From Antedon mediterranea (taxonomy: Eukaryota; Echinodermata; Crinoidea; Comatulida; Antedonidae): a stretch of DNA of 64,000 bases. Both the position numbers and the translations under genes were made by a program. Shown one piece after another: positions 311 through 38,900 of this stretch. Within the stretch, counting starts at the first letter, position 1, and each line of letters opens with the position of its first letter. The DNA lies in assembly GCF_964355755.1 (NCBI RefSeq), contig NC_092679.1:17164932-17228931 (forward strand), read 5' to 3'. Below the pieces are notes generated by a model. The model was not told the origin of the DNA and ran no database searches. It was given only the letters and a program-made list of their open reading frames with translations.

Positions 311-11796
<11,486 letters not shown>

Positions 11797-12052: not shown

Positions 12053-12065
12053 AAGCCTTTATAGT
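12053..12065. repeat. Direct repeat (target-site duplication) left of foldback element
   Basis: AAGCCTTTATAGT here is repeated exactly at 27910-27922. Four of the 13 bases on the right overlap the maximal inverted repeat, so the duplication proper may be the 9-bp CTTTATAGT. Confidence 0.7.
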
Positions 12066-12218
12066 GCTTGTGTCAAGCTAGCCGACAATAAGCCAGCCGA
12101 CAATAAGCCAGCCCACTTTTATTTTTTCCAGCCGACAATAACTATGAAACGCCGTTTGTGTATTTTTCACATTTTCAGTATTGCTTAAGGTTTTTATAGT
12201 ATTAGAAATTCAATATTT
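12066..12218 (+). repeat. Left terminal inverted repeat of foldback element
   Basis: Begins GCTTGTGTCAAGC, itself a hairpin (GCTTG-TGT-CAAGC). Then AGCCGACAATAAGCC occurs twice in tandem and again in part near 12131. It then runs through CACATTTTCAGTATTGC and into the first satellite unit. The complement is at 27762-27913. Confidence 0.8.
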
Positions 12219-12220
12219 GT

Positions 12221-15200
12221 GAGAAAATGGCGGATTGCTCCTGGGAGTCACTTGGTGGGATTATACTAGGGTACCTCCTTAGTCGTCCAGTATAAGTTAG
12301 AGTAGGACCGCTGGTCCTGTTTACTCAGCCCTCATCTTTTAAATCTGAGTGTAACTCAATTACGATTTTTAATATTATAGTGAAATTTGATATTGTATTT
12401 GTGAGAAAATGGCGGATTGCTCCTGGGAGTCACTTGGTGGGATTATACTAGGGTACCTCCTTAGTCGTCCAGTATAAGTTAGGGTGGGACCACTGGTCCT
12501 GTTTACTCAGCCCTCATCTTTTAAATCTGAGTGTAACTCAATTACGATTTTTTATATAGTGAAATTTGATACTGTATTTGTGAGAAAATGGCGAATTGCT
12601 CCTGGGAGTCACTTGGTGGGATTATACTAGGGTACCTCCTTAGTCGTCCAGTATAAGTTAGAGTAGGACCACTGGTCCTGTTTACTCAGCCCTCATCTTT
12701 TAAATCTGAGTGTAACTCAATTACGATTTAAAATATTATAGTAAAATTTGATACTGTAGGCCCTATTTGTGAGAAAATGGCGGATTGCTCCTGGGAGTCA
12801 CCTGGTGGGATTGTACTAGGGTACCTCCTTAGTCGTCCAGTATAAGTTAAAGTAGGACCACTGGTCCTGTTTACTCAGCCCTCATCTTTTAAATCTGAGT
12901 GTAACTCAATTACGATTTTTAATATTATAGTAAAATTTGATACTGTATTTGTGAGAAAATGGAAGATTGCTCCTGTGAGTCACTTGGTGGGATTATACTT
13001 GGGTACCTCCTTAGTCATCCAGTATAAGTTAGAGTAGGACCACTGGCCCTGTTTACTCAGCCCTCATCTTTTAAATCTGAGTGTAACTCAATTACGATTT
13101 TTAATATTATAGTGAAATTTGATACTGTATTTGTGAGAAAATGGCGTATTGCTCCTGGGAGTCACTTGGTGGGATTATACTAATGGACCTCCTTAATCGT
13201 CCAGTATAAGTTAGAGTAGGACCGCTGGTCCCGTTTACTCAGCCCTCATCTTTTAAATCTATCTGAGTGTAACTCAATTACGATTTTTTATATAGTGAAA
13301 TTTGATACTGTATTTGTGAGAAAATGGCGGATTGCTCCAGGGAGTCACTTGGTGGGATTATACTAGGGTACCTCTTTAGTCGTCCAGTATAAGTTAGAGT
13401 AGGACCGCTGGTCCCGTTTACTCAGCAGCCCTCATCTTTTTAAATCTGCGTGTAACTCAATTACGATTTTAAATATTATAGTGAAATTTGGTACTGTATT
13501 TGTGAGAAAACGGCGTATTGCTCCTGGAAGTCACTCCGTGGGATTATACTAGGGTACCTCCTTAGTTGTCCAGTATAAGTTAGAGTAGGACCGCTGGTCT
13601 TGTTTACTCAGCCCTCATCTTTTAAATCTGAGTGTAACTCAATTACGATTTTTAATATTATAGTGAAATTTGATACTGTATTTGTGAGAAAATGTCGGAT
13701 TGCTCCTGGGAGTCACTTGGTGGGATTATACTTGGGTACCTCTTTAGTCGTCCAGTATAAGTTAGAGTAGGACCGCTGGCCCTGTTTACTCAGCCCTCAT
13801 CTTTTAAATCTGAGTATAACTCAATTACGATCTTTAATATTATAGTGAAATTTGATACTGTATTTGTGAGAAAATGGCGGATTGCTCCTGGGAGTCACTT
13901 GGTGGGATTATACTAGGGGACATCCTTAATCGTCCAGTATAAGTTAGAGTAGGACCGCTGGTCCCGTTTACTCAGCCCTTATCTTTTAAATCTGAGTGTA
14001 ACTCAATTACAATTTTTTATATAGTGAAATTTGATACTGTATTTGTGAGAAAATGGCGGATTGCTCCTGGGAGTCACTTGGTGGGATTATACTAGGGTAC
14101 CTCCTTAGTCGTCCAGTATAAGTTAGAGTTGGACCGCTGGTCCTGTTTACTCAGCCCTATTCTTTTAAATCTGGGTGTAACTCAATTACGATTTTAAATA
14201 TTATAGTGAAATTTGGTACTGTATTTGTGAGAAAACGGCGGATTGCTCCTGGAAGTCACTCGGTGGGATTATACTAGGGTACCTCCTTATTCGTCCAGTA
14301 TAAGTTAGAGTAGGACCACTGGTCATGTTTACTCAGCCCTCATCTTTTAAATCTGAGTGTAACTCAATTACGATCTTTAATATTATAGTGAAATTTGATA
14401 CTGTATTTGTGAGAAAATGGCGGATTGCTCCTGGGAGTCACTTGGTGGGATTATACTAGGGGACCTTCTTAATCGTCCAGTATAAGTTAGAGTAGAACCG
14501 CTGGTCCCGTTTACTCAGCCCTCATCTTTTAAATCTGAGTGTAACTCAATTACGATTTTTTATATAGTGAAATTTGATACTGTATTTGTGAGAAAATGGA
14601 GGATTGCTCCTGGGAGTCACTTGGTGGGATTATACTAGGGTACCTCCTTAGTCGTCCAGTATAAGTTAGATTTGGACCGATGGTCCTGTTTACTCAGCCC
14701 TTATCTTTTAAATCTGAGTGTAACTCAATTACGATTTTAAATATTATAGTGAAATTTGGTACTGTATTTGTGAGAAAACGGCGGATTGCTCCTGGAAGTC
14801 ACTCGGTGGGATTATACTAGGGTACCTCCTTAGTTGTTCAGTATAAGTTAGAGTAGGACCGCTGGTCTTGTTTACTCAGTCCTCATCTTTTAAATCTGAG
14901 TGTAACTCAATTAAGATTTTTTAAACAGTGAAATTTGATACTGTATTTGTGAGAAAATGGCGGATTGCTCCTGGTAGTCACTTGGTGGGATTATACTAGG
15001 GTACCTCCTTAGTCGTCCAGTATAAGTTAAGGTAGGACCACTGGTCCCGTTTACTCAGCCCTCATCTTTTAAATCTGAGTATAACTCAATTACGATTTTT
15101 AATATTATAGTGAAATTTGATACTGTATTTGTGAGAAAATGGCGGATTGCTCCTGGGAGTCACTTGGTGGGATTATACTAGGGTACCTCTTTTGTCGTCC

Positions 15201-18200
15201 AGTATAAGTTAGGGTGGGACCACTGGTCCCGTTTACTCAGCCCTCATCTTTTAAATCTGAGTGTAACTCAATTACGATTTTTAATATTATAGTGAAATTT
15301 GATACTGTATTTGTGAGAAAATGGCGGATTGCTCCTGGGAGTCACTTGGTGGGATTATACTAAGGGACCTCCTTAATTCTTCCAGTATAAGTTAGAGTAG
15401 GACCGCTGGTCCCGTTTACTCAGCCCTCATCTTTTAAATCTGAGTGTAACTCAATTACAATTTTTTATATAGTGAAATTTGATACTGTATTTGTGAGAAA
15501 ATGGCGAATTGCTCCTGGGAGTCACTTGGTGGGATTATACTAGGGTACCTCCTTAGTCGTCCAGTATAAGTTAGAGTAGGACCGCTGGTCCTGTTTACTC
15601 AGCCCTCATCTTTTAAATCTGAGTGTAACTCAATTACGATTTTAAATATTATAGTGAAATTTGGTACTGTATTTGTGAGAAAACGGCGGATTGCTCCTGG
15701 AAGTCACTCGGTAGGATTATACTAGGGTACCTCCTTAGTTGTCCAGTATAAGTTAGAGTAGGACCGCTGGTCTTGTTTCCTCAGCCCTTATCTTTTAAAT
15801 CTCAGTGTAACTCAATTACGATTTTTAATATTATAGTAAAATTTGATACTGTATTTGTGAGAAAATGGCGGATTGCTCGTGGGAGTCACTTGGTGGAATT
15901 ATACTAGGGTACCTCCTTAGTCGTCCAGTATAAGTTAGGGTGGGACCACTGGTCCCGTTTACTCAGCCCTCATCTTTTAAATCTGAGTGTAACTCAATTA
16001 CGATTTTTAATTTTATAGTGAAATTTGATACTGTATTTGTGAGAAAATGGCGGATTGCTCCTGGGAGTCACTTGGTGGGATTATACTAGGGTACCTCCTT
16101 AGTCGTCCAGTATAAGTTAGAGTAGGACCACTGGTCCTGTTTACTCAGCCCTCATCTTTTAAATCTGAGTGTAACTCAATTACAATTTTTTATATAGTGA
16201 AATTTGATACTGTATTTGTGAGAAAATGGCGGATTGCTCCTGGGAGTCACTTGGTGGGATTATACTAGGGTACCTCCTTAGTCGTCCAGTATAAGTTAGA
16301 GTAGGACCGCTGGTCCTGTTTACTCAGCCATCATCTTTTAAATCTGAGTGTAACTCAATTACGATTTTTAATATTATAGTAAAATTTGATACTGTATTTG
16401 TGAGAAAATGGCGGATTGCTCCTGGGAGTCACTTGGTGGGATTATACTAGGGTACCTCCTTAGTCGTCCAGTATAAGTTAGAGTAGGACCGCTGGTCCTG
16501 TTTACTCAGCCCTCATCTTTTAAATCTGAGTGTAACTCAATTACGATTTTTAATATTATAGTGAAATTTGATATTGTATTTGTGAGAAAATGGCGGATTG
16601 CTCCTGGGAGTCACTTGGTGGGATTATACTAGGGTACCTCCTTAGTCGTCCAGTATAAGTTAGGGTGGGACCACTGGTCCTGTTTACTCAGCCCTCATCT
16701 TTTAAATCTGAGTGTAACTCAATTACGATTTTTTATATAGTGAAATTTGATACTGTATTTGTGAGAAAATGGCGAATTGCTCCTGGGAGTCACTTGGTGG
16801 GATTATACTAGGGTACCTCCTTAGTCGTCCAGTATAAGTTAGAGTAGGACCACTGGTCCTGTTTACTCAGCCCTCATCTTTTAAATCTGAGTGTAACTCA
16901 ATTACGATTTATAATATTATAGTAAAATTTGATACTGTATTTGTGAGAAAATGGCGGATTGCTCCTGGGAGTCACTTGGTGGGATTGTACTAGGGTACCT
17001 CCTTAGTCGTCCAGTATAAGTTAAAGTAGGACCACTGGTCCTGTTTACTCAGCCCTCATCTTTTAAATCTGAATGTAACTCAATTACGATTTTTAATATT
17101 ATAGTAAAATTTGATACTGTATTTGTGAGAAAATGGAAGATTGCTCCTGTGAGTCACTTGGTGGGATTATACTTGGGTACCTCCTTAGTCATCCAGTATA
17201 AGTTAGAGTAGGACCGCTGGCCCTGTTTACTCAGCCCTCATCTTTTAAATCTGAGTGTAACTTAATTACGATTTTTAATATTATAGTGAAATTTGATACT
17301 GTATTTGTGAGAAAATGGCGGATTGCTCCTGGGAGTCACTTAGTGGGATTATACTAGGGTACCTCCTTAGTCGTCCAGTATAAGTTAGAGTAGGACCGCT
17401 GGTCCTGTTTACTTAGCCCTCATCTTTTAAATATGAGTGTAACTCAATTACGATTTTAAATATTATAGTGAAATTTGGTACTGTATTTGTGAGAAAACGG
17501 CGTATTGCTCCTGGAAGTCACTCCGTGGGATTATACTAGGGTACCTCCTTAGTTGTCCAGTATAAGTTAGAGTAGGACCGCTGGTCCCGTTTACTCAGCA
17601 GCCCTCATCTTTTTAAATCTGCGTGTAACTCAATTACGATTTTAAATATTATAGTGAAATTTGGTACTGTATTTGTGAGAAAACGGCGTATTGCTCCTGG
17701 AAGTCACTCCGTGGGATTATACTAGGGTACCTCCTTAGTTGTCCAGTATAAGTTAGAGTAGGACCGCTGGTCTTGTTTACTCAGCCCTCATCTTTTAAAT
17801 CTGAGTGTAACTCAATTACGATTTTTAATATTATAGTGAAATTTGATACTGTATTTGTGAGAAAATGGCGGATTGCTCCTGGGAGTCACTTGGTGGGATT
17901 ATACTTGGGTACCTCTTTAGTCGTCCAGTATAAGTTAGAGTAGGACCGCTGGCCCTGTTTACTCAGCCCTCATCTTTTAAATCTGAGTATAACTCAATTA
18001 CGATCTTTAATATTATAGTGAAATTTGATACTGTATTTGTGAGAAAATGGCGGATTGGTCCTGGGAGTCACTTGGTGGGATTATACATGGGGACATCCTT
18101 AATCGTCCAGTATAAGTTAGAGTAGGACCGCTGGTCCCGTTTACTCAGCCCTTATCTTTTAAATCTGAGTGTAACTCAATTACAATTTTTTATATAGTGA

Positions 18201-21200
18201 AATTTGATACTGTATTTGTGAGAAAATGGCGGATTGCTCCTGGGAGTCACTTGGTGGGATTATACTAGGGTACCTCCTTAGTCGTCCAGTATAAGTTAGA
18301 GTAGGACCGCTGGTCCTGTTTACTCAGCCCTATTCTTTTAAATCTGGGTGTAACTCAATTACGATTTTAAATATTATAGTGAAATTTGGTACTGTATTTG
18401 TGAGAAAACGGCGGATTGCTCCTGGAAGTCACTCGGTGGGATTATACTAGGGTACCTCCTTAGTCGTCCAGTATAAGTTAGAGTAGGACCACTGGTCATG
18501 TTTACTCAGCCCTCATCTTTTAAATCTGAGTGTAACTCAATTACGATCTTTAATATTATAGTGAAATTTGATACTGTATTTGTGAGAAAATGGTGGATTG
18601 CTCCTGGGAGTCACTTGGTGGGATTATACTAGGGGACCTTCTTAATCGTCCAGTATAAGTTAGAGTAGAACCGCTGGTCCCGTTTACTCAGCCCTCATCT
18701 TTTAAATCTGAGTGTAACTCAATTACGATTTTTTATATAGTGAAATTTGATACTGTATTTGTGAGAAAATGGAGGATTGCTCCTGGGAGTCACTTGGTGG
18801 AATTGTACTAGGGTACCTCCTTAGTCGTCCAGTATAAGTTAGATTTGGACCGATGGTCCTGTTTACACAGCCCTTATCTTTTAAATCTGAGTGTAACTCA
18901 ATTACGATTTTAAATATTATAGTGAAATTTGGTACTGTATTTGTGAGAAAACGGCGGATTGCTCCTGGAAGTCACTCGGTGGGATTATACTAGGGTACCT
19001 CCTTAGTTGTTCAGTATAAGTTAGAGTAGGACCGCTGGTCTTGTTTACTCAGTCCTCATCTTTAAAATCTGAGTGTAACTCAATTACGATTTTTTAAACA
19101 GTGAAATTTGATACTGTATTTGTGAGAAAATGGCGGATTGCTCCTGGTAGTCACTTGGTGGGATTATACTAGGGTACCTCCTTAGTCGTCCAGTATAAGT
19201 TAAGGTAGGACCACTGGTCCCGTTTACTCAGCCCTCATCTTATAAATCTGAGTGTAACTCAATTACGATTTTTAATATTATAGTGAAATTTGATACTGTA
19301 TTTGTGAGAAAATGGCGGATTGCTCCTGGGAGTCACTTGGTGGGATTATACTAGGGTACCTCTTTTGTCGTCCAGTATAAGTTAGGGTGGGACCACTGGT
19401 CCCGTTTACTCAGCCCTCATCTTTTAAATCTGAGTGTAACTCAATTACGATTTTTAATATTATAGTGAAATTTGATACTGTATTTGTGAGAAAATGGCGG
19501 ATTGCTCCTGGGAGTCACTTGGTGGGATTATACTAAGGGACCTCCTTAATTCTTCCAGTATAAGTTAGAGTAGGACCGCTGGTCATGTTTACTCAGCCCT
19601 CATCTTTTAAATCTGAGTGTAACTCAATTACAATTTTTTATATAGTGAAATTTGATACTGTATTTGTGAGAAAATGGCGAATTGCTCCTGGGAGTCACTT
19701 GGTGGGATTATACTAGGGTACCTCCTTAGTCGTCCAGTATAAGTTAGAGTAGGACCGCTGGTCCTGTTTACTCAGCCCTCATCTTTTAAATCTGAGTGTA
19801 ACTCAATTACGATTTTAAATATTATAGTGAAATTTGGTACTGTATTTGTGAGAAAACGGCAGATTGCTCCTGGAAGTCACTCGGTAGGATTATACTAGGG
19901 TACCTCCTTAGTTGTCCAGTATAAGTTAGAGTAGGACCGCTGGTCTTGTCTCCTCAGCCCTTATCTTTTAAATCTGAGTGTAACTCAATTACGATTTTTA
20001 ATATTATAGTAAAATTTGATACTGTATTTGTGAGAAAATGGCGGATTGCTCGTGGGAGTCACTTGGTGGAATTATACTAGGGTACCTCCTTAGTCGTCCA
20101 GTATAAGTTAGGGTGGGACCACTGGTCCCGTTTACTCAGCCCTCATCTTTTAAATCTGAGTGTAACTCAATTACGATTTTTAATTTTATAGTGAAATTTG
20201 ATACTGTATTTGTGAGAAAATGGCGGATTGCTCCTGGGAGTCACTTGGTGGGATTATACTAGGGTACCTCCTTAGTCGTCCAGTATAAGTTAGAGTAGGA
20301 CCACTGGTCCTGTTTACTCAGCCCTCATCTTTTAAATCTGAGTGTAACTCAATTACAATTTTTTATATAGTGAAATTTGATACTGTATTTGTGAGAAAAT
20401 GGCGGATTGCTCCTGGGAGTCACTTGGTGGGATTATACTAGGGTACCTCCTTAGTCGTCCAGTATAAGTTAGAGTAGGACCGCTGGTCCTGTTTACTCAG
20501 CCATCATCTTTTAAATCTGAGTGTAACTCAATTACGATTTTTAATATTATAGTAAAATTTGATACTGTATTTGTGAGAAAATGGCGGATTGCTCCTGGGA
20601 GTCACTTGGTGGAATTATACTAGGGTACCTCCTTAGTCGTCCAGTATAAGTTAGGGTGGGACCACTGGTCCCGTTTACTCAGCCCTCATCTTTTAAATCT
20701 GAGTTTAACTCAATTACGATTTTTAATATTATAGTGAAATTTGATACTGTATTTGTGAGAAAATGGCGGATTGCTCCTGGGAGTCACTTGGTGGGATTAT
20801 ACTAGGGTACCTCCTTAGTCGTCCAATTTAAGTTAGAGTAGGACCACTGGTCCTGTTTACTCAGCCCTCATCTTTTAAATCTGAGTGTAACTCAATTACG
20901 ATCTTTAATATTATAGTGAAATTTGATACTGTATTTGTGAGAAAATGGCGGATTGCTCCTGGGAGTCACTTGGTGGGATTATACTAGGGGACCTCCTTAA
21001 TCGTCCAGTATAAGTTAGAGTAGGACCGCTGGTTCCGTTTACTCAGCCCTCATCTTTTAAATCTGAGTGTAACTCAATTACGATTTTTTATATAGTGAAA
21101 TTTGATACTGTATTTGTGAGAAAATGGCGGATTGCTCCTGGGAGTCACTTGGTGGGATTATACTAGGGTACCTCCTTAGTCGTCCAGTATAAGTTAGATT

Positions 21201-24200
21201 TGGACCGCTGGTCCTGTTTACTCAGCCCTTATCTTTTAAATCTGAGTGTAATTCAATTACGATTTTAAATATTATAGTGAAATTTGGTACTGTATTTGGG
21301 AGAAAACGGCGGATTGCTCCTGGAAGTCACTCGGTGGGATTATACTAGGGTACCTCCTTAGTTGTTAGGTATAAGTTAGAGTAGGACCGCTGGTCTTGTT
21401 TACTCAGCCCTCATCTTTTAAATCTGAGTGTAACTCAATTACGATTTTTTATATAGTGAAATTTGATACTGTATTTGTGAGAAAATGGCGGATTGCTCCT
21501 GGGAGTCACTTGGTGGGATTATACTAGGGTACCTCCTTAGTCGTCCAGTATAAGTTAGAGTAGGACCGCTGGTCCTGTTTACTCAGCCCTCATCTTTTAA
21601 ATCTGAGTGTAACTCAATTACGATTTTTAATATTATAGTGAAATTAGATACTGTATTTGTGAGAAAATGGCGGATTGCTCCTGGGAGTCACTTGGTGGGA
21701 TTATACTAGGGTACCTTCTTAGTCGTCCAGTATAAGTTAGGGTGGGACCACTGGTCCCGTTTACTCAGCCCTCATCTTTTAAATCTGAGTGTAACTCAAT
21801 TACGATTTTTAATATTATAGTAAAATTTGATACTGTATTTGTGAGAAAATGGCGGATTGCTCGTGGGAGTCACTTGGTGGAATTATACTAGGGTACCTCC
21901 TTAGTCGTCCAGTATAAGTTAGGGTGGGACCACTGGTCCCGTTTACTCAGCCCTCATCTTTTAAATCTGAGTGTAACTCAATTACGATTTTTAATTTTAT
22001 AGTGAAATTTGATACTGTATTTGTGAGAAAATGGCGGATTGCTCCTGGGAGTCACTTGGTGGGATTATACTAGGGTACCTCCTTAGTCGTCCAGTATAAG
22101 TTAGAGTAGGACCACTGGTCCTGTTTACTCAGCCCTCATCTTTTAAATCTGAGTGTAAATCAATTACAATTTTTTCTATAGTGAAATTTGATACTGTATT
22201 TGTGAGAAAATGGCGGATTGCTCCTGAGAGTCACTTGGTGGGATTATACTAGGGTACCTCCTTAGTCGTCCAGTATAAGTTAGAGTAGGACCGCTGGTCC
22301 TGTTTACTCAGTCATCATCTTTTAAATCTGAGTGTAACTCAATTACGATTTTTAATATTATAGTAAAATTTGATACTGTATTTGTGAGAAAATGGCGGAT
22401 TGCTCCTGGGAGTCACTTGGTGGAATTATACTAGGGTACCTCCTTAGTCGTCCAGTATAAGTTAGGGTGGGACCACTGGTCCCGTTTACTCAGCCCTCAT
22501 CTTTTAAATCTGAGTTTAACTCAATTACAATTTTTAATATTATAGTGAAATTTGATACTGTATTTGTGAGAAAATGGCGGATTGCTCCTGGGAGTCACTT
22601 GGTGGGATTATACTAGGGTACCTCCTTAGTCGTCCAGTTTAAGTTAGAGTAGGACCACTGGTCCTGTTTACTCAGCCCTCATCTTTTAAATCTGAGTGTA
22701 ACTCAATTACGATCTTTAATATTATAGTGAAATTTGATACTGTATTTGTGAGAAAATGGCGGATTGCTCCTGGGATTCACTTGGTGGGATTATACTAGGG
22801 GACCTCCTTAATCGTCCAGTATAAGTTAGAGTAGGACCGCTGGTTCTGTTTACTCAGCCCTCATCTTTTAAATCTGAGTGTAACTCAATTACGATTTTTA
22901 ATATTATAGTGAAATTAGATACTGTATTTGTGAGAAAATGGCGGATTGCTCCTGGGAGTCACTTGGTGGGATTATACTAGGGTACCTTCTTAGTCGTCCA
23001 GTATAAGTTAGGGTGGGACCACTGGTCCCGTTTACTCAGCCCTCATCTTTTAAATCTGAGTGTAACTCAATTACGATTTTTAATATTATAGTAAAATTTG
23101 ATACTGTATTTGTGAGAAAATGGCGGATTGCTCGTGGGAGTCACTTGGTGGAATTATACTAGGGTACCTCCTTAGTCGTCCAGTATAAGTTAGGGTGGGA
23201 CCACTGGTCCCGTTTACTCAGCCCTCATCTTTTAAATCTGAGTGTAACTCAATTACGATTTTTAATTTTATAGTGAAATTTGATACTGTATTTGTGAGAA
23301 AATGGCGGAATGCTCCTGGGAGTCACTTGGTGGGATTATACTAGGGTACCTCCTTAGTCGTCCAGTATAAGTTAGAGTAGGACCACTGGTCCTGTTTACT
23401 CAGCCCTCATCTTTTAAATCTGAGTGTAAATCAATTACAATTTTTTCTATAGTGAAATTTGATACTGTATTTGTGAGAAAATGGCGGATTGCTCCTGGGA
23501 GTCACTTGGTGGGATTATACTAGGGTACCTCCTTAGTCGTCCAGTATAAGTTAGAGTAGGACCGCTGGTCCTGTTTACTCAGTCATCATCTTTTAAATCT
23601 GAGTGTAACTCAATTACGATTTTTAATATTATAGTAAAATTTGATACTGTATTTGTGAGAAAATGGCGGATTGCTCCTGGGAGTCACTTGGTGGAATTAT
23701 ACTAGGGTACCTCCTTAGTCGTCCAGTATAAGTTAGGGTGGGACCACTGGTCCCGTTTACTCAGCCCTCATCTTTTAAATCTGAGTTTAACTCAATTACA
23801 ATTTTTAATATTATAGTGAAATTTGATACTGTATTTGTGAGAAAATGGCGGATTGCTCCTGGGAGTCACTTGGTGGGATTATACTAGGGTACCTCCTTAG
23901 TCGTCCAGTTTAAGTTAGAGTAGGACCACTGGTCCTGTTTACTCAGCCCTCATCTTTTAAATCTGAGTGTAACTCAATTACGATCTTTAATATTATAGTG
24001 AAATTTGATACTGTATTTGTGAGAAAATGGCGGATTGCTCCTGGGATTCACTTGGTGGGATTATACTAGGGGACCTCCTTAATCGTCCAGTATAAGTTAG
24101 AGTAGGACCGCTGGTTCTGTTTACTCAGCCCTCATCTTTTAAATCTGAGTGTAACTCAATTACGATTTTTTATATAGTGAAATTTGATACTGTATTTGTG

Positions 24201-26292
24201 AGAAAATGGCGGATTGCTCCTGGGAGTCACTTGGTGGGATTATACTAGGGTACCTCCTTAGTCGTCCAGTATAAGTTAGATTTGGACCGCTGGTCCTGTT
24301 TACTCAGCACTTATCTTTTAAATCTGAGTGTAACTCAATTACGATTTTAAATATTATAGTGAAATTTGGTACTGTATTTGGGAGAAAACGGCGGATTGCT
24401 CCTGGAAGTCACTCGGTGGGATTATACTAGGGTACCTATTTAGTCGTCCAGTATAAGTTAGAGTAGGACCACTGGTCTTGTTTACTCAGCCCTCATCTTT
24501 TAAATCTGAGTGTAACTCAATTACGATTTTTTATATAGTGAAATTTGATACTGTATTTGTGAGAAAATGGCGGATTGCTCCTGGGAGTCACTTGGTGGGA
24601 TTATACTAGGGTACCTCCTTAGTCGTCCAGTATAAGTTAGAGTAGGACCGCTGGTCCTGTTTACTCAGCCATCATCTTTTAAATCTGAGTGTAACTCAAT
24701 TACGATTTTTAATATTATAGTAAAATTTGATACTGTATTTGTGAGAAAATGGCGGATTGCTCCTGGGAGTCACTTGGTGGAATTATACTAGGGTACCTCC
24801 TTAGTCGTCCAGTATAAGTTAGGGTGGGACCACTGGTCCCGTTTACTCAGCCCTCATCTTTTAAATCTGAGTTTAACTCAATTACGATTTTTAATATTAT
24901 AGTGAAATTGATACTGTATTTGTGAGAAAATGGCGGATTGCTCCTGGGAGTCACTTGGTGGGATTATACTAGGGTACCTCCTTAGTCGTCCAGTTTAAGT
25001 TAGAGTAGGACCACTGGTCCTGTTTACTCAGCCCTCATCTTTTAAATCTGAGTGTAACTCAATTACGATCTTTAATATTATAGTGAAATTTGATACTGTA
25101 TTTGTGAGAAAATGGCGGATTGCTTCTGGGATTCACTTAGTGGGATTATACTAGGGGACCTCCTTAATCGTCCAGTATAAGTTAGAGTAGGACCGCTGGT
25201 TCCGTTTACTCAGCCCTCATCTTTTAAATATGAGTGTAACTCAATTACGATTTTTTATATAGTGAAATTTGATACTGTATTTGTGAGAAAATGGCGGATT
25301 GCTCCTGGGAGTCACTTGGTGGGATTATACTAGGGTACCTCCTTAGTCGTCCAGTATAAGTTAGATTTTGACCGCTGGTCCTGTTTACTCAGCCCTTATC
25401 TTTTAAATCTGAGTGTAACTCAATTACGATTTTAAATATTATAGTGAAATTTGGTACTGTATTTGGGAGAAAACGGCGGATTGCTCCTGGAAGTCACTCG
25501 GTGGGATTATACTAGGGTACCTCCTTAGTTGTTAGGTATAAGTTAGAGTAGGACCGCTGGTCTTGTTTACTCAGCCCTCATCTTTTAAATCTGAGTGTAA
25601 CTCAATTACGATTTTTTATATAGTGAAATTTGATACTGTATTTGTGAGAAAATGGCGGATTGCTCCTGGGAGTCACTTGGTGGGATTATACTAGGGTACC
25701 TCCTTAGTCGTCCAGTATAAGTTAGAGTAGGACCGCTGGTCCTGTTTACTCAGCCCTCATCTTTTAAATCTGAGTGTAACTCAATTACGATTTTTAATAT
25801 TATAGTGAAATTAGATACTGTATTTGTAAGAAAATGGCGGATTGCTCCTGGGAGTCACTTGGTGGGATTATACTAGGGTACCTTCTTAGTCGTCCAGTAT
25901 AAGTTAGGGTGGGACCACTGGTCCCGTTTACTCAGCCCTCATCTTTTAAATCTGAGTGTAACTCAATTACGATTTTTAATATTATAGTAAAATTTGATAC
26001 TGTATTTGTGAGAAAATGGCGGATTGCTCCTGGGAGTCACTTGGTGGGATTATACTAGGGTACCTCCTTAGTCGTCCAGTGTAAGTTAGAGTAGGACCAC
26101 TGGTCTTGTTTACTCAGCCCTCATCTTTTAAATCTGAGTGTAACTCAATTACGATTTTTAATATTAAAGTGAAATTTGATACTGTATTTGTGAGAAAATG
26201 GAGGATTGCTCCTGGGAGTCACTTGGTGGGATTATACTAGGGTACCTCTTTAGTCATCCAGTATAAGTTAGAGTAGGACCACTTGCCTTGTT
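12221..26292 (+). repeat. Forward satellite array, 78 units of ~181 bp
   Basis: Starts of GAGAAAA-GGCGG blocks were counted by eye at 12221, 12403, 12582, 12771 and so on to 26193, giving 78 units with spacing mostly 179-184 bp. Each unit runs GAGAAAATGGCGGATTGCTC, then GAGTCACTTGGTGGGATTAT, GTACCTCCTTAGTCGTCCAG, GGACC-GCT-GGTCC (inverted repeat), TGAGT-GTA-ACTCA (inverted repeat), and an AT-rich linker. At least three subtypes occur: TTTAATATTATAG linker (~182 bp), TTTTATATAG linker (~179 bp), and a form with GAAAACGGCGG plus GGAAGTCACTCGG. No long ORF crosses the array. Confidence 0.95.
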
Positions 26293-26321
26293 TACTATAA
26301 TTTGTTTACTATAATTATTTC

Positions 26322-27770
26322 AATATAATATTTAAAATCGTAATTGAGTTACACTCAGATTTAAAAAGATGAGGGCTGCTGAGTAAACGGGACCAGCGGT
26401 CCTACTCTAACTTATACTGGACGACTAAGGAGGTACCCTAGTATAATCTCACCAAGTGATTCCCAGGAGCAATCCGCCATTTTCTCACAAATACAGTATC
26501 AAATTTCACTATATAAAAAATCGTAATTGAGTTACACTCAGATTTAAAAGATGAGGGCTGAGTAAACGGGACCAGTTGTCCAACTTTAACTTATACTGGA
26601 CGATTAAGGAGGTCCCCTAGTATAATCCCACCAAGTGACTCATAGGAGCAATCCGCCATTTTCTCACAAATACAGTATCAAATTTCACTATAATATTAAA
26701 AAGTCGTAATTGAGTTACACTCAGATTTAAAAGATGAGGGCTGAGTAAACAAGACCTGCGGTCCTACTCTAACTTATACTGGACAACTAAGGAGGTCCCC
26801 TAGTATAATCCCACCGAGTGACTTCCAGGAGCAATCCGCCGTTTTCTCACAAATACAGTACCAAATTTCACTATAATATTTAAAATCGTAATTGAGTTAC
26901 ACTCAGATTTAAAAAGATGAGGGCTGAGTAAACAGGACCAGCGGTCCTACTCTAACTTATACTGGACGACTAAGGAGGTACCCTAGTATAATCCAACCAA
27001 GTGACTCACAGGTGCAATCCGCTATTTTCTCACAAATACAGTATCAAATTTTACTATAATATTAAAAATCGTAATTGAGTTACACTCCGATTTAAAAGAT
27101 GAAGGCTGAGTAAACAGGACCAGCGGTCCTACTCTAACTTATACTGGACGACCAAAGAGGTACCTTAGTATAATCCCACCAAGTGACTCCCAGGAGCAAT
27201 CCGCCATTTTCTCACAAATACAGTATCAAATTTCACTATAATATTAAAAATCGTAATTGAGTTACACTCAGATTTAAAAGATGAGGGCTGAGTAAACAGG
27301 ACCAGCGGTCCTACTCTAACTTATACTGGATGACTAAGGAGGTACCCAAGTATAATCCCACCAAGTGACTCCCAGGAGCAATCCGCCATTTTCTCACAAA
27401 TACAGTATCAAATTTCACTATAATATTAAAAATCGTAATTGAGTTACACTCAGATTTAAAAGATGAGGGCTGAGTAAACGGGACCAGTGGTCCCACCCTA
27501 ACTTATACTGGACGACTAAGGAGGTACCCTAGTATAATCCCAGAAAGTGAATCCCAGGAGCAATCCGCCATTTTCTCACAAATACAGTATCAAATTTCAC
27601 TATAATATTAAAAATCGTAATGAGTTACACTCAGATTTAAAAGATGAGGGCTGAGTAAACAGGACCAGCGGTTCTACTCTAACTTATACTTGACGATTAA
27701 GGAGGTCCCCTAGTATAATCCCACCAAGTGACTCCCAGGAGCAATCCGCCATTTTCTCACAAATATTGAA
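26322..27770 (-). repeat. Inverted satellite array, 8 units
   Basis: The same monomer in the opposite orientation. CCGCCATTTTCTCACAAATA-type blocks recur near 26479, 26660, 26842, 27024, 27207, 27389, 27572 and 27751. The array runs straight into the right terminal inverted repeat. All three linker subtypes of the forward array recur here, so the inversion happened after they had diverged, or they are exchanged between arms. Confidence 0.9.
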
Positions 27771-27913
27771 TTTCTAATACTATAAAAACCTTAAGCAATA
27801 CTGAAAATGTGAAAAATACACAAACGGCGTTTCATACTTATTGTCGGCTGGAAAAAATAAAAGTGGGCTGGCTTATTGTCGGCTGGCTTATTGTCGGCTA
27901 GCTTGACACAAGC
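27762..27913 (-). repeat. Right terminal inverted repeat of foldback element
   Basis: Complement of 12066-12218, ending GGCTAGCTTGACACAAGC. Carries the tandem GGCTTATTGTCGGCT motifs. It is followed by CTTTATAGT at 27914-27922, the second copy of the flanking duplication. Confidence 0.8.
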
Positions 27914-27922
27914 CTTTATAGT

Positions 27923-35944: not shown

Positions 35945-38900
35945 TCATTGTAACGATGAATCCTCCTCTTGATTGTTTTCAATTTTTTCTAATTGTTCAC
36001 TAGATAACCTTTGTATTCTACGTCGTCTAATTTCTTGGTGATCATGCTCCCCAGGAGTCATTTCAAATTTGAGTTCATAATCATCGGAAATAATCTCTGG
36101 CACCGGCTCATCTTGTCCGCCAGTGGCTCCTAATACTGTTGCTGAAAATAGAATTACAAAGCAAATGTTACTTACTGTGAACAGTCAAATCTGGAACTTT
36201 TCGAATTTGGAAAGTCTACCAAAAGCCAGATTTTTATAAAAAAGAATTACAGTACATCTACCCCTCCTTTGGGAAACCCCTAATCAAGGGACACACTATT
36301 AATCGGACACTTTCATGTTAAAGAACAAAGAGAAATATATGTTTTAACACCCCAGCCAATCAATATTCAAGGAACACCTCTAATTTGAGGACACCCTTAT
36401 TAAGTGGACAATTAGGTGTGTCCCAAAGGTATTCTCTTAAAGGCCAGGTGCAGGCAAAAAATGTCTATTGATCATACATTCCAATAATTATCGATCTATA
36501 GTTTCCCCTATGTTTCATAATTTTTGGGATTTTATTTGTGTTACATGAGCTTGTTGAAAATAAGCACTTTCTTATCAGTGGGGGGATAGTTCAAATTACA
36601 CAGTAAAATCTCTATTCTTTTGTACACACATTTTGTAAATAGAGAGGCATTTTAAAAAGCTATGAAAAATAAACGGTGTGGTAAAAAATGTTATCAGATG
36701 ACTAAATATAGGTAATATAACTTTAATATTACATTTCTGATATTTTTATTCAACTTCAGATTTTTATTTTCATGCTATAGCAAAAATTATCCACCGTATA
36801 TCCACCATCTTTTTTCACTGTCTAGGGAGTCACCAGACATGTTATTACATTAGGTTAACTACATAACAACTGAAAAAAAGTCTTCCTGGTTTTTAGGATA
36901 TTGCTAAACACCGCAAACCCCGCAAACCCCCGCAAACCTCCAAAAAAACATAGCAAACCCCATCGAACCAACATAAAAGTGATTGAATCATGTAGTGTAC
37001 AACCCACTGGGTATATCAATGTAAAAAAAAAATTAAATTTCTACATTTAACAACTTATTTTTGGGGTAAAACATCATTTTTTGGTCAAAAATGATTGGTA
37101 AACCCCGCAAACCTCCAAAAAACCATAGCAAACCCCACCGAACCAACATAAAAGTGATTGAATAATGTAGTGTACGACCCACTGGGTATATAAATTATTA
37201 AATTTCTACTGTTAACTACTTATTTTTGGGGATAAAACATAATTTTTTGGTTAAAAATTAGCAATCATTTTTGACCAAAAAATGATGTTTTACCCCAAAA
37301 ATAAGTAGTTAACGGTATAAATTTAATATTTTTTTTACATGGATATACCCAGTGGGTTGTACACTACATGATTCAATCACTTTTATGTTGGTTCGATGGG
37401 GTTTGCTATATTTTTTTTTAGGTTTGCAGGGTTTAGCAATCATTTTTGACCAAAAAATGATGTTTTACCCCAAAAATAATTAGTTAACAGTAAAAATGTA
37501 TTATTTTTTTTTACATGGATATACCCAGTGGGTTGTACACTACATGATTCAATCACTTTTATGTTGGTTCGATGGGGTTTGCTATGTTTTTTTGGAGGTT
37601 TGCGGGGGTTTGCGGGGTTTGCGGTGTTTAGCAATACCCGGTTTTTATGGAAGAATTTTGCCAAATTTTGTATTTGACCATATTAAGGGAAATTCATGTT
37701 TTTTCGTCTCGATTTCTGTTACAAATATTTGATTTATGTACAATTAACCATATATTATATTTAAAATTCATGCCTGTACCTGAGCTTTAATATGGGATCT
37801 ACTGGCCAGCTAAATAATAGGGTATTTCCTAAAGTTGGCAAATGGAATGTGCATATTATTGTATTGTTTATAATTAATTAACCTATACAAAACAATAATA
37901 CATACAATCAATTTCAGTTCCTTTGGTGGAACTATCTGCAGCTGCTGTAGTTTTACTTGTACTTGGTTGTGAATCTAAATCTGAAGTTGCCGAGGCTACT
38001 GGTGTTGTCACTGTAGTAGTGGCGGATACCGTAACAGTAGAAGCCGTACTGCTACTAGCTGGTACATTTATTCTATCAAAAATAAAAGAAATTGAGTGAT
38101 GCAGAGAACTGAGGCCCCTGATCCCTCTAACACTGGAGGCCTAGGGCATTTTTAGCCTTTTTTGACATATTTTAATGAATTTCTTCTGCGCACTGCTCAG
38201 GGGTTTAGCCAGTGAGCGCTCATAGGCGTTATGCCACTGGATGTACAGAAGAACCGAAAGTCTAATAATTCCTCAACTTTGTTGGGTCCTGAAGGTGTCC
38301 CTCTTAATAGAGGTTTTACGGTACTACAAACAAGTCAGTCTCAAGATTCCAAAACAAATAAAATAAAAATAAAAATAAAAAAATAAAATAGATTATTTGA
38401 AGCAGGTATATGAATACTTACCCCAGGTTTTGCATTACTGTTGTATACTGTTGTATTTGTATCATAGCTGCATCTAGGAATGTGTGTATACTACGAAGGC
38501 ATTCGATCCTCGCCTCCATATGAGATCTTTCTGTACCCTCCATAGCTCGTAATTCTTCATCATTCAAGCCTTGGAAATCTGGAGGAGGTCTAGGTGGTGG
38601 AATATCTGGCAAATCAAACACAAACAAATTATTTTTAAAATCGAAAAACTGTGGATAGCTACATATTATAGAGTAGAGTTGTGGCTTGGTGGTTATGATG
38701 CTTGGCTACCATTCCAAAGGTCCTGGGTTCAAGTCCCGTCACATGTCAGGATTTTTTCTAAGGACAAAATTACAACTCCACTCCCAAAGACTTGTAATAA
38801 GACTTTGTTTGTGTAGAGCATCTTGTGCATATGTTTGTCTTGTGAACCTCTGAGGGTCCCTAATGATCAGCAATTGCTGGATGGATCACCCTCATTAAAT

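Follow-up and report, generated by a model that had tools for sequence, protein, structure and literature searches.

A satellite-bearing foldback transposon candidate and its family in the crinoid Antedon mediterranea

Introduction

Long arrays of tandemly repeated monomers can grow where they lie or be carried to a new site, and a ~16-kb block in the genome of Antedon mediterranea raises the question of which of these happened. The block was found in a window of 64,000 nucleotides (the whole stretch of DNA analysed here; G000:C10:17164932-17228931, in a 354-Mb assembly of 18 contigs). It occupies window positions 12066-27913 and consists of 86 copies of a ~182-bp monomer held between 148-bp inverted ends. 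An initial annotation, made from the sequence of the window, had read it as a foldback element that moved as one unit and that might show how a mobile element seeds a satellite array. We compared the block with the rest of the genome and with described transposon families. Our preferred reading, to which we give a probability of roughly 85%, is that it is a non-autonomous cut-and-paste foldback DNA transposon with arms of 182-bp monomers, moved by a transposase made elsewhere.

Results

Anatomy of the window element

The left terminal inverted repeat (TIR; 12066-12213, + strand) is 97-100% identical to other ends of its sub-family (A, see below) and matches the left end of the copy at C1:21703697 at 100% over 200 bp. 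The right TIR (27766-27913, − strand) differs from the left by one base in 140 (99.3% identity). A search of the window found the terminus GCTTGTGTCAAGCTAGCC once, at 12066 on the + strand, and its reverse complement once, at 27896-27913. Each end contains a 15-bp unit repeated 2.6 times according to TRF (AAGCCAGCCGACAAT at 12075-12113 on the + strand; 27866-27904 on the − strand), and a 5-bp hairpin (GCTTG-TGT-CAAGC) is possible in the first 13 nt of the element, GCTTGTGTCAAGC. The 9-bp sequence CTTTATAGT lies immediately outside both ends as an exact target-site duplication (TSD; 12057-12065 and 27914-27922).

The array occupies the whole interior, and its monomer has no coding capacity. TRF returned a period of 182, with 77.6 copies in the forward arm (12214-26296, + strand) and 8.0 copies of opposite direction in the reverse arm (26317-27765, − strand); anchor counting gave 78 and 8 monomers, and both sets of counts come from assembled sequence. 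The array reverses at a turn-round point (26288-26316) that is made of two copies of the 14-bp repeat TTGTTTACTATAAT and holds no loop sequence. The near-identical ends of ~150 bp and their boundaries, the perfect flanking repeat and the interior of a ~181-bp monomer running 78 times one way and 8 times the other, all claimed in the initial annotation, were thus confirmed at base resolution.

Left/right symmetry of ~99% is limited to the terminal 150-180 bp, and inward of this the monomers that adjoin the ends in either arm are barely closer to each other than random monomers are. This limit marks the 148-bp end as the conserved functional unit, and both arms draw on one monomer pool arrayed in opposite directions. 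Forward-arm monomers are most commonly 182 or 179 bp long, and mean pairwise identity among window monomers is 93.5%. Adjoining monomers are ~93% identical, which is the level of distant or random pairs, and no neighbouring pair reaches 99%. The array also contains exact internal repeats (672, 636 and 517 bp), offset by 7 and 23 monomers, which indicate block duplication at some time.

Two further repeat structures lie in the window outside the element. Just upstream, at 11074-11400, is a perfect 54-bp inverted repeat with copies 219 bp apart, and at 36896-37639 are nested inverted and direct repeats (arms 136-180 nt, 90-99% complementary) that are probably a small inverted-repeat element.

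A family of copies with different target sites

The 26-nt terminus, searched with up to three mismatches across the 354 Mb, gave 72 matches (40 forward, 32 reverse), and a reversed control gave none. Ends could be matched into 28 pairs, with spacings of 7.5-33 kb plus one of 79 kb. A perfect 9-bp TSD flanks 20 of the 28 pairs and a perfect 8-bp TSD another three; four have a 9-bp TSD with one mismatch and one has two mismatches. No 9-bp, 8-bp or one-mismatch match was seen in 756 mis-paired flank controls which, together with the empty reversed control, excludes chance. The TSDs differ at every paired copy, with no strong common sequence, and the flanks of the window element are single-copy. 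At least 27 similar copies besides the window element are therefore spread across the chromosomes, and they bear out the genome search proposed in the initial annotation: the same termini with different flanks and 9-bp duplications. The family has both the structure of a foldback element, with long inverted repeats containing tandem repeats able to fold back, and its mobility, with several copies (28 pairs) in different flanks and TSDs.

The two large sub-families, A, to which the window element belongs, and B, are one base apart in the 26-nt pattern and differ by 9% over 140 bp. A third, short sub-family (C) is embedded in another palindromic element. At C1:26631870-26638109, the ends of sub-family C sit within a larger palindromic element, which begins TGACAAACAAATATTGCCGTACGG and is inserted in a target, AATTCCTCGAGGAATT, that is itself palindromic; the inner terminus does not form the end of this larger element. 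Arm ratios vary within the family, being 78:8 in the window element and ~37:33 in E1, a member of the sister pair described below. The unequal arms that had been called striking are one point on a family range.

Some copies have altered ends or contents. Among the copies at C5:19064456 and C3:32277395, one right end lacks ~11 nt of the terminus and keeps its TSD, and one left end has its first 10 nt doubled. The A-type ends 79 kb apart (C6:18981631-19060520) have a TSD matching at 8 of 9 positions and enclose an interior (~67 kb) with four fibrinogen-C genes, an RT and a tyrosine-recombinase ORF; either a gene cluster was carried here by macro-transposition, or a large insertion has split an element. 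Big clusters of fibrinogen-related genes occur in this C6 set (L071), at C1:10.0-11.0 Mb and at C1:40.3 Mb.

Movement and origin of the arrays

Two copies, C1:21189257-21202419 and C10:3232243-3245223, align without gaps over 11,540 bp at 99.757% identity, turn-round point included, and otherwise differ by one 182-bp monomer near the left end. Their TSDs are different (CATTTTGAC and CCCTCGCAC), as are their flanks. A common array with different TSDs means that, in this lineage at least, the array moved together with the element. A third copy, C3:32277395-32289109, is 99% identical to the sister pair over the outermost 1.7 kb or more of one arm. The array of the window element had no match above 98% among the family ends compared, and a search for an empty site with the joined flanks of its insertion matched only the locus itself. 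Its neighbouring monomers, at ~93% with none reaching 99%, and its ends, one base apart in 140, indicate an array that was already diverse before a recent insertion, so that it appears to have arrived full-length. Movement as one unit, as the initial annotation had it, is thus directly documented for the sister pair, and for the window copy we infer it.

The satellite itself was followed with two probes. A monomer 24-mer has 1,270 exact matches in the genome, the first 100 of which (C1 to 21.2 Mb) fall in two elements only. A 40-mer has 165 matches, and the first 100 (C1 to C7:1.17 Mb) lie in elements apart from those at C4:17.145-17.158 Mb, where the array turns from + to − and holds the inner part of a TIR. 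No match on chromosome C2 is among those listed. In the ~220 Mb sampled the listed matches thus confine the satellite to the transposon, and arrays independent of a mobile element, such as define a classical free satellite, are absent among them. The idea that a mobile element here seeds a satellite array is not supported by these data, since the satellite was not seen outside the element among the matches listed over ~220 Mb.

These observations bear on three other accounts of the block. The array might have grown in place, a short element inserting and its monomers then multiplying by unequal exchange or slippage. The wide variation in array length among copies (7.5-33 kb), the single monomer that separates E1 from E2 in the sister pair and the exact internal repeats of 517-672 bp in the window array would all suit such growth. 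However, the sister pair has a whole array and its centre in common at 99.76%, and growth from a few monomers after insertion predicts near-identical neighbours, whereas those in the window stand at the random-pair level of 93% between ends that are 99.3% identical. We consider growth in place improbable, if the most serious of these three accounts. That a satellite existed first and independently, and that an array of it was caught by chance between two inverted ends, would account for a noncoding monomer that fills the whole interior. This is very improbable: the listed monomer matches over ~220 Mb all lie inside elements with these ends, the extra locus on C4 also turns round and carries part of a TIR, and C2 has none of the listed matches. 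Finally, palindromic arrays are difficult to assemble and the window copy number is assembly-derived, so a collapsed or mirrored tandem array has to be considered. Mis-joins cannot explain matching TSDs at 28 loci or the unique window flanks, and only the exact copy number could suffer; an assembly artefact as the source of the block is scarcely credible. Insertion of an element with its array already in place remains our preferred reading.

A coding copy on C3

One copy of ~33 kb lies at C3:8279859-8313032, with ends of type B and a perfect TSD, ATGTGCGAG. Its + array extends to 8289867 and its − array begins at 8305627. The interval between the arrays contains two uninterrupted ORFs, one of 1,108 aa at 8298808-8302131 and one of 774 aa at 8302388-8304709. 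A predicted GT-AG intron, with donor CAG/GTATTT at 8302121 and an acceptor at 8302464 preceded by a pyrimidine tract, joins both ORFs in phase into one predicted spliced protein of ~1,850 aa. Pfam detects in it a PHD finger (3e-5), a UCH/USP domain (1e-19) and a Peptidase_C48/ULP1 domain (4e-20), and the PDB relatives of the two protease domains are USP46/USP12 and SENP1/SENP2. Catalytic boxes NNCWFN and GHY are present in the USP domain, as are the H, D and Q-C boxes in ULP1. The middle of the protein contains a zinc-finger-like stretch (C-x4-C...H), IDATG (D868), NMD (D944) and CTSH (C991-H994); the last three make up a D-D-CxxH, transposase-like core (residues ~640-1060). A 117-bp tandem repeat of ~10 copies (C3:8299470-8300617) runs in the presumed transposase frame and encodes 39-aa acidic repeats.

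This copy holds the only intact core domain in the genome, and likewise the only intact copy of its USP domain. Distant or decayed relatives of the core occur on C2, C4 and C10; a scan of viral contigs found no relatives, and a PDB search with the core gave chance matches only. The decayed second copy at C4:12430401-12433567 retains both core and USP domain, 41-90% identical in pieces, which indicates that transposase core and USP belong together. The C3 copy is the probable autonomous partner of the satellite-bearing copies. Its protein is probably a transposase and may also act on the ends of sub-family A, although its own ends are 91% identical to the A ends of the window, which counts against this. 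An autonomous relative with the same ends and a MULE-type transposase had been suggested as a check; a coding copy with related, B-type ends was found, and its MULE-type character is indicated by motif and TSD length only.

Affinity to known transposase superfamilies

Mutator elements (MULEs) make TSDs of 8-11 bp, mostly 9, and the family agrees with this (20 perfect duplications of 9 bp and three of 8 bp). Of the Mutator layout D...D...CxxH...E, the C3 core has the parts up to CxxH in order (D868, D944 and C991-H994), the motifs being read by eye, and the succession zinc finger - IDATG - NMD - CxxH presumably fits Mutator-like cores. The MULE profile PF10551 matched neither any element nor the C3 protein, no Pfam transposase model matched the core, and hhalign of the core against four MULEs of the A. 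mediterranea genome was not significant, though in one such alignment the first Asp residues of the two proteins line up. We do not claim Mutator membership, given the profile and hhalign results. The element seems to work like a Mutator/foldback element, with TSD length and motif order pointing to the Mutator side.

A search for MULEs in the genome did not link them to the family. None of the 36 matches lies inside an element. An intact MULE at C4:19.22 Mb is bounded by its own TIR, perfect over 81 bp, and has a 9-bp TSD; its ends are unrelated to the family, and neither it nor three other MULE loci resemble the family ends or monomer. This MULE (C4:19.216-19.222 Mb; TSD GGCCGGCTA) has an intact 637-aa frame, and frames of equal length at other loci suggest recent activity of its type.

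The ends could instead be moved by a transposase from a different superfamily that makes duplications of 8-9 bp (P/Galileo-like, Merlin, hAT or KDZ), the C3 protein being a passenger or a member of it. We regard this as unlikely, while giving it real weight: the core has no significant match to the MULE profile, and in Galileo a foldback anatomy is served by a P-type transposase (PMC3573991). Against it, an intact multi-domain gene sits between perfect ends with a perfect TSD, its motif order presumably fits Mutator-like cores, and the TSD is exactly 9 bp in 20 of 28 pairs; the Mutator/foldback family Tm1 also has 9-bp TSDs (PMC3169594). P/Galileo elements have 7-8 bp TSDs and a THAP/P-type transposase; in this family 9-bp TSDs predominate, and no THAP or P-type Pfam domain was found in the coding copy. 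Helitrons and Helentrons, characterized by Rep/helicase and the lack of TSDs and long TIRs, do not fit a family in which both TIR and TSD are present, and no helicase domain was found in the two long C3 ORFs.

Discussion

The FB and FB-NOF elements of Drosophila melanogaster are foldback elements with inner tandem repeats and a 9-bp TSD, some copies having a coding segment between the arms. Compared by description, they differ in that FB repeats are short (tens of bp) and the elements a few kb. Helentrons move by rolling circle. In Crassostrea gigas they have spread arrays that resemble satellites (PMC7492417); the arrays described here, likewise carried by a mobile element, differ in having inverted ends and 9-bp duplications. 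Galileo, of the P superfamily, has long, internally repetitive TIRs of at most 1.3 kb, in which the count of ~210-bp tandem repeats differs from arm to arm, a 7-bp TSD and a P-type transposase (PMC3573991). Repetitive TIRs with repeat numbers unequal between arms are common to both, but here 9-bp TSDs predominate and the arrays are far longer.

The closest precedents are Tetris for anatomy and the satellite link, and Tm1 for 9-bp TSDs combined with a single coding copy. Tetris, a foldback transposon of Drosophila virilis for which Mutator affinity has been argued, has long TIRs in which a flanking domain is followed by ~220-bp tandem repeats, a noncoding middle domain, 8-10 bp TSDs and arrays of up to 66 copies, with allelic copies one repeat apart; three structurally complete copies are described, with no coding partner and with expanded heterochromatic arrays (PMC4079207). 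The likeness, in TIR-flanked tandem arrays, noncoding middle and TSD length, is one of anatomy. Unlike Tetris, the present family has 28 paired copies that are intact mobile units of tens to more than 100 monomers; it includes a coding copy, and the monomer matches listed over ~220 Mb show no array free of an element. Tm1, from root-knot nematodes, has composite TIRs with tandem motifs (~14-bp repeats), 9-bp TSDs and one coding element among many noncoding ones, with a Mutator-type (Phantom) transposase whose FLYWCH and MULE domains are recognisable by model (PMC3169594). Composite TIRs, 9-bp TSDs and a single coding copy unite the two families; ~182-bp repeats, the lack of a MULE model match and the USP/ULP1 domains, which Tm1 is not known to have, set the Antedon family apart. 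What is new is how large and how numerous the intact satellite-bearing units are, the direct evidence that an array moved whole, and a coding copy with several domains.

In the mechanism we propose, the 148-bp inverted ends would be the sites recognised by the transposase, and behind them two head-to-tail arrays of 182-bp monomers would meet head to head. The transposase would be supplied elsewhere, most likely as the C3 protein or by an extinct, A-type relative; it would bind the ends, excise the element and paste it where the target is cut with a 9-bp stagger. The array would be carried along as a passenger that may also offer further binding sites, a role suggested for the Galileo repeats (PMC3573991), and after insertion its length would drift by gain or loss of monomers or monomer blocks. 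USP and ULP1 may have roles in transposition. It is possible, if on balance doubtful, that the whole represents a satellite array kept in a mobile unit and moved whole at up to 27 kb, served by a single master copy whose one protein unites PHD finger, transposase core, deubiquitinase and deSUMOylase, the last two with their catalytic residues.

If this is true, the master could change chromatin and repair at a palindromic donor site while moving it. The family touches on the open questions of how satellites spread and what limits the inverted tandem arrays a transposon can carry. It catches an intermediate, with at least 27 other array-bearing copies of datable insertion and a sister pair whose array moved intact and has since changed in length by one monomer. 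It also has a candidate autonomous copy, which the comparable Tetris case lacked. Together, the copies, the sister pair and the candidate autonomous copy make array growth before versus after transposition directly testable within one genome.
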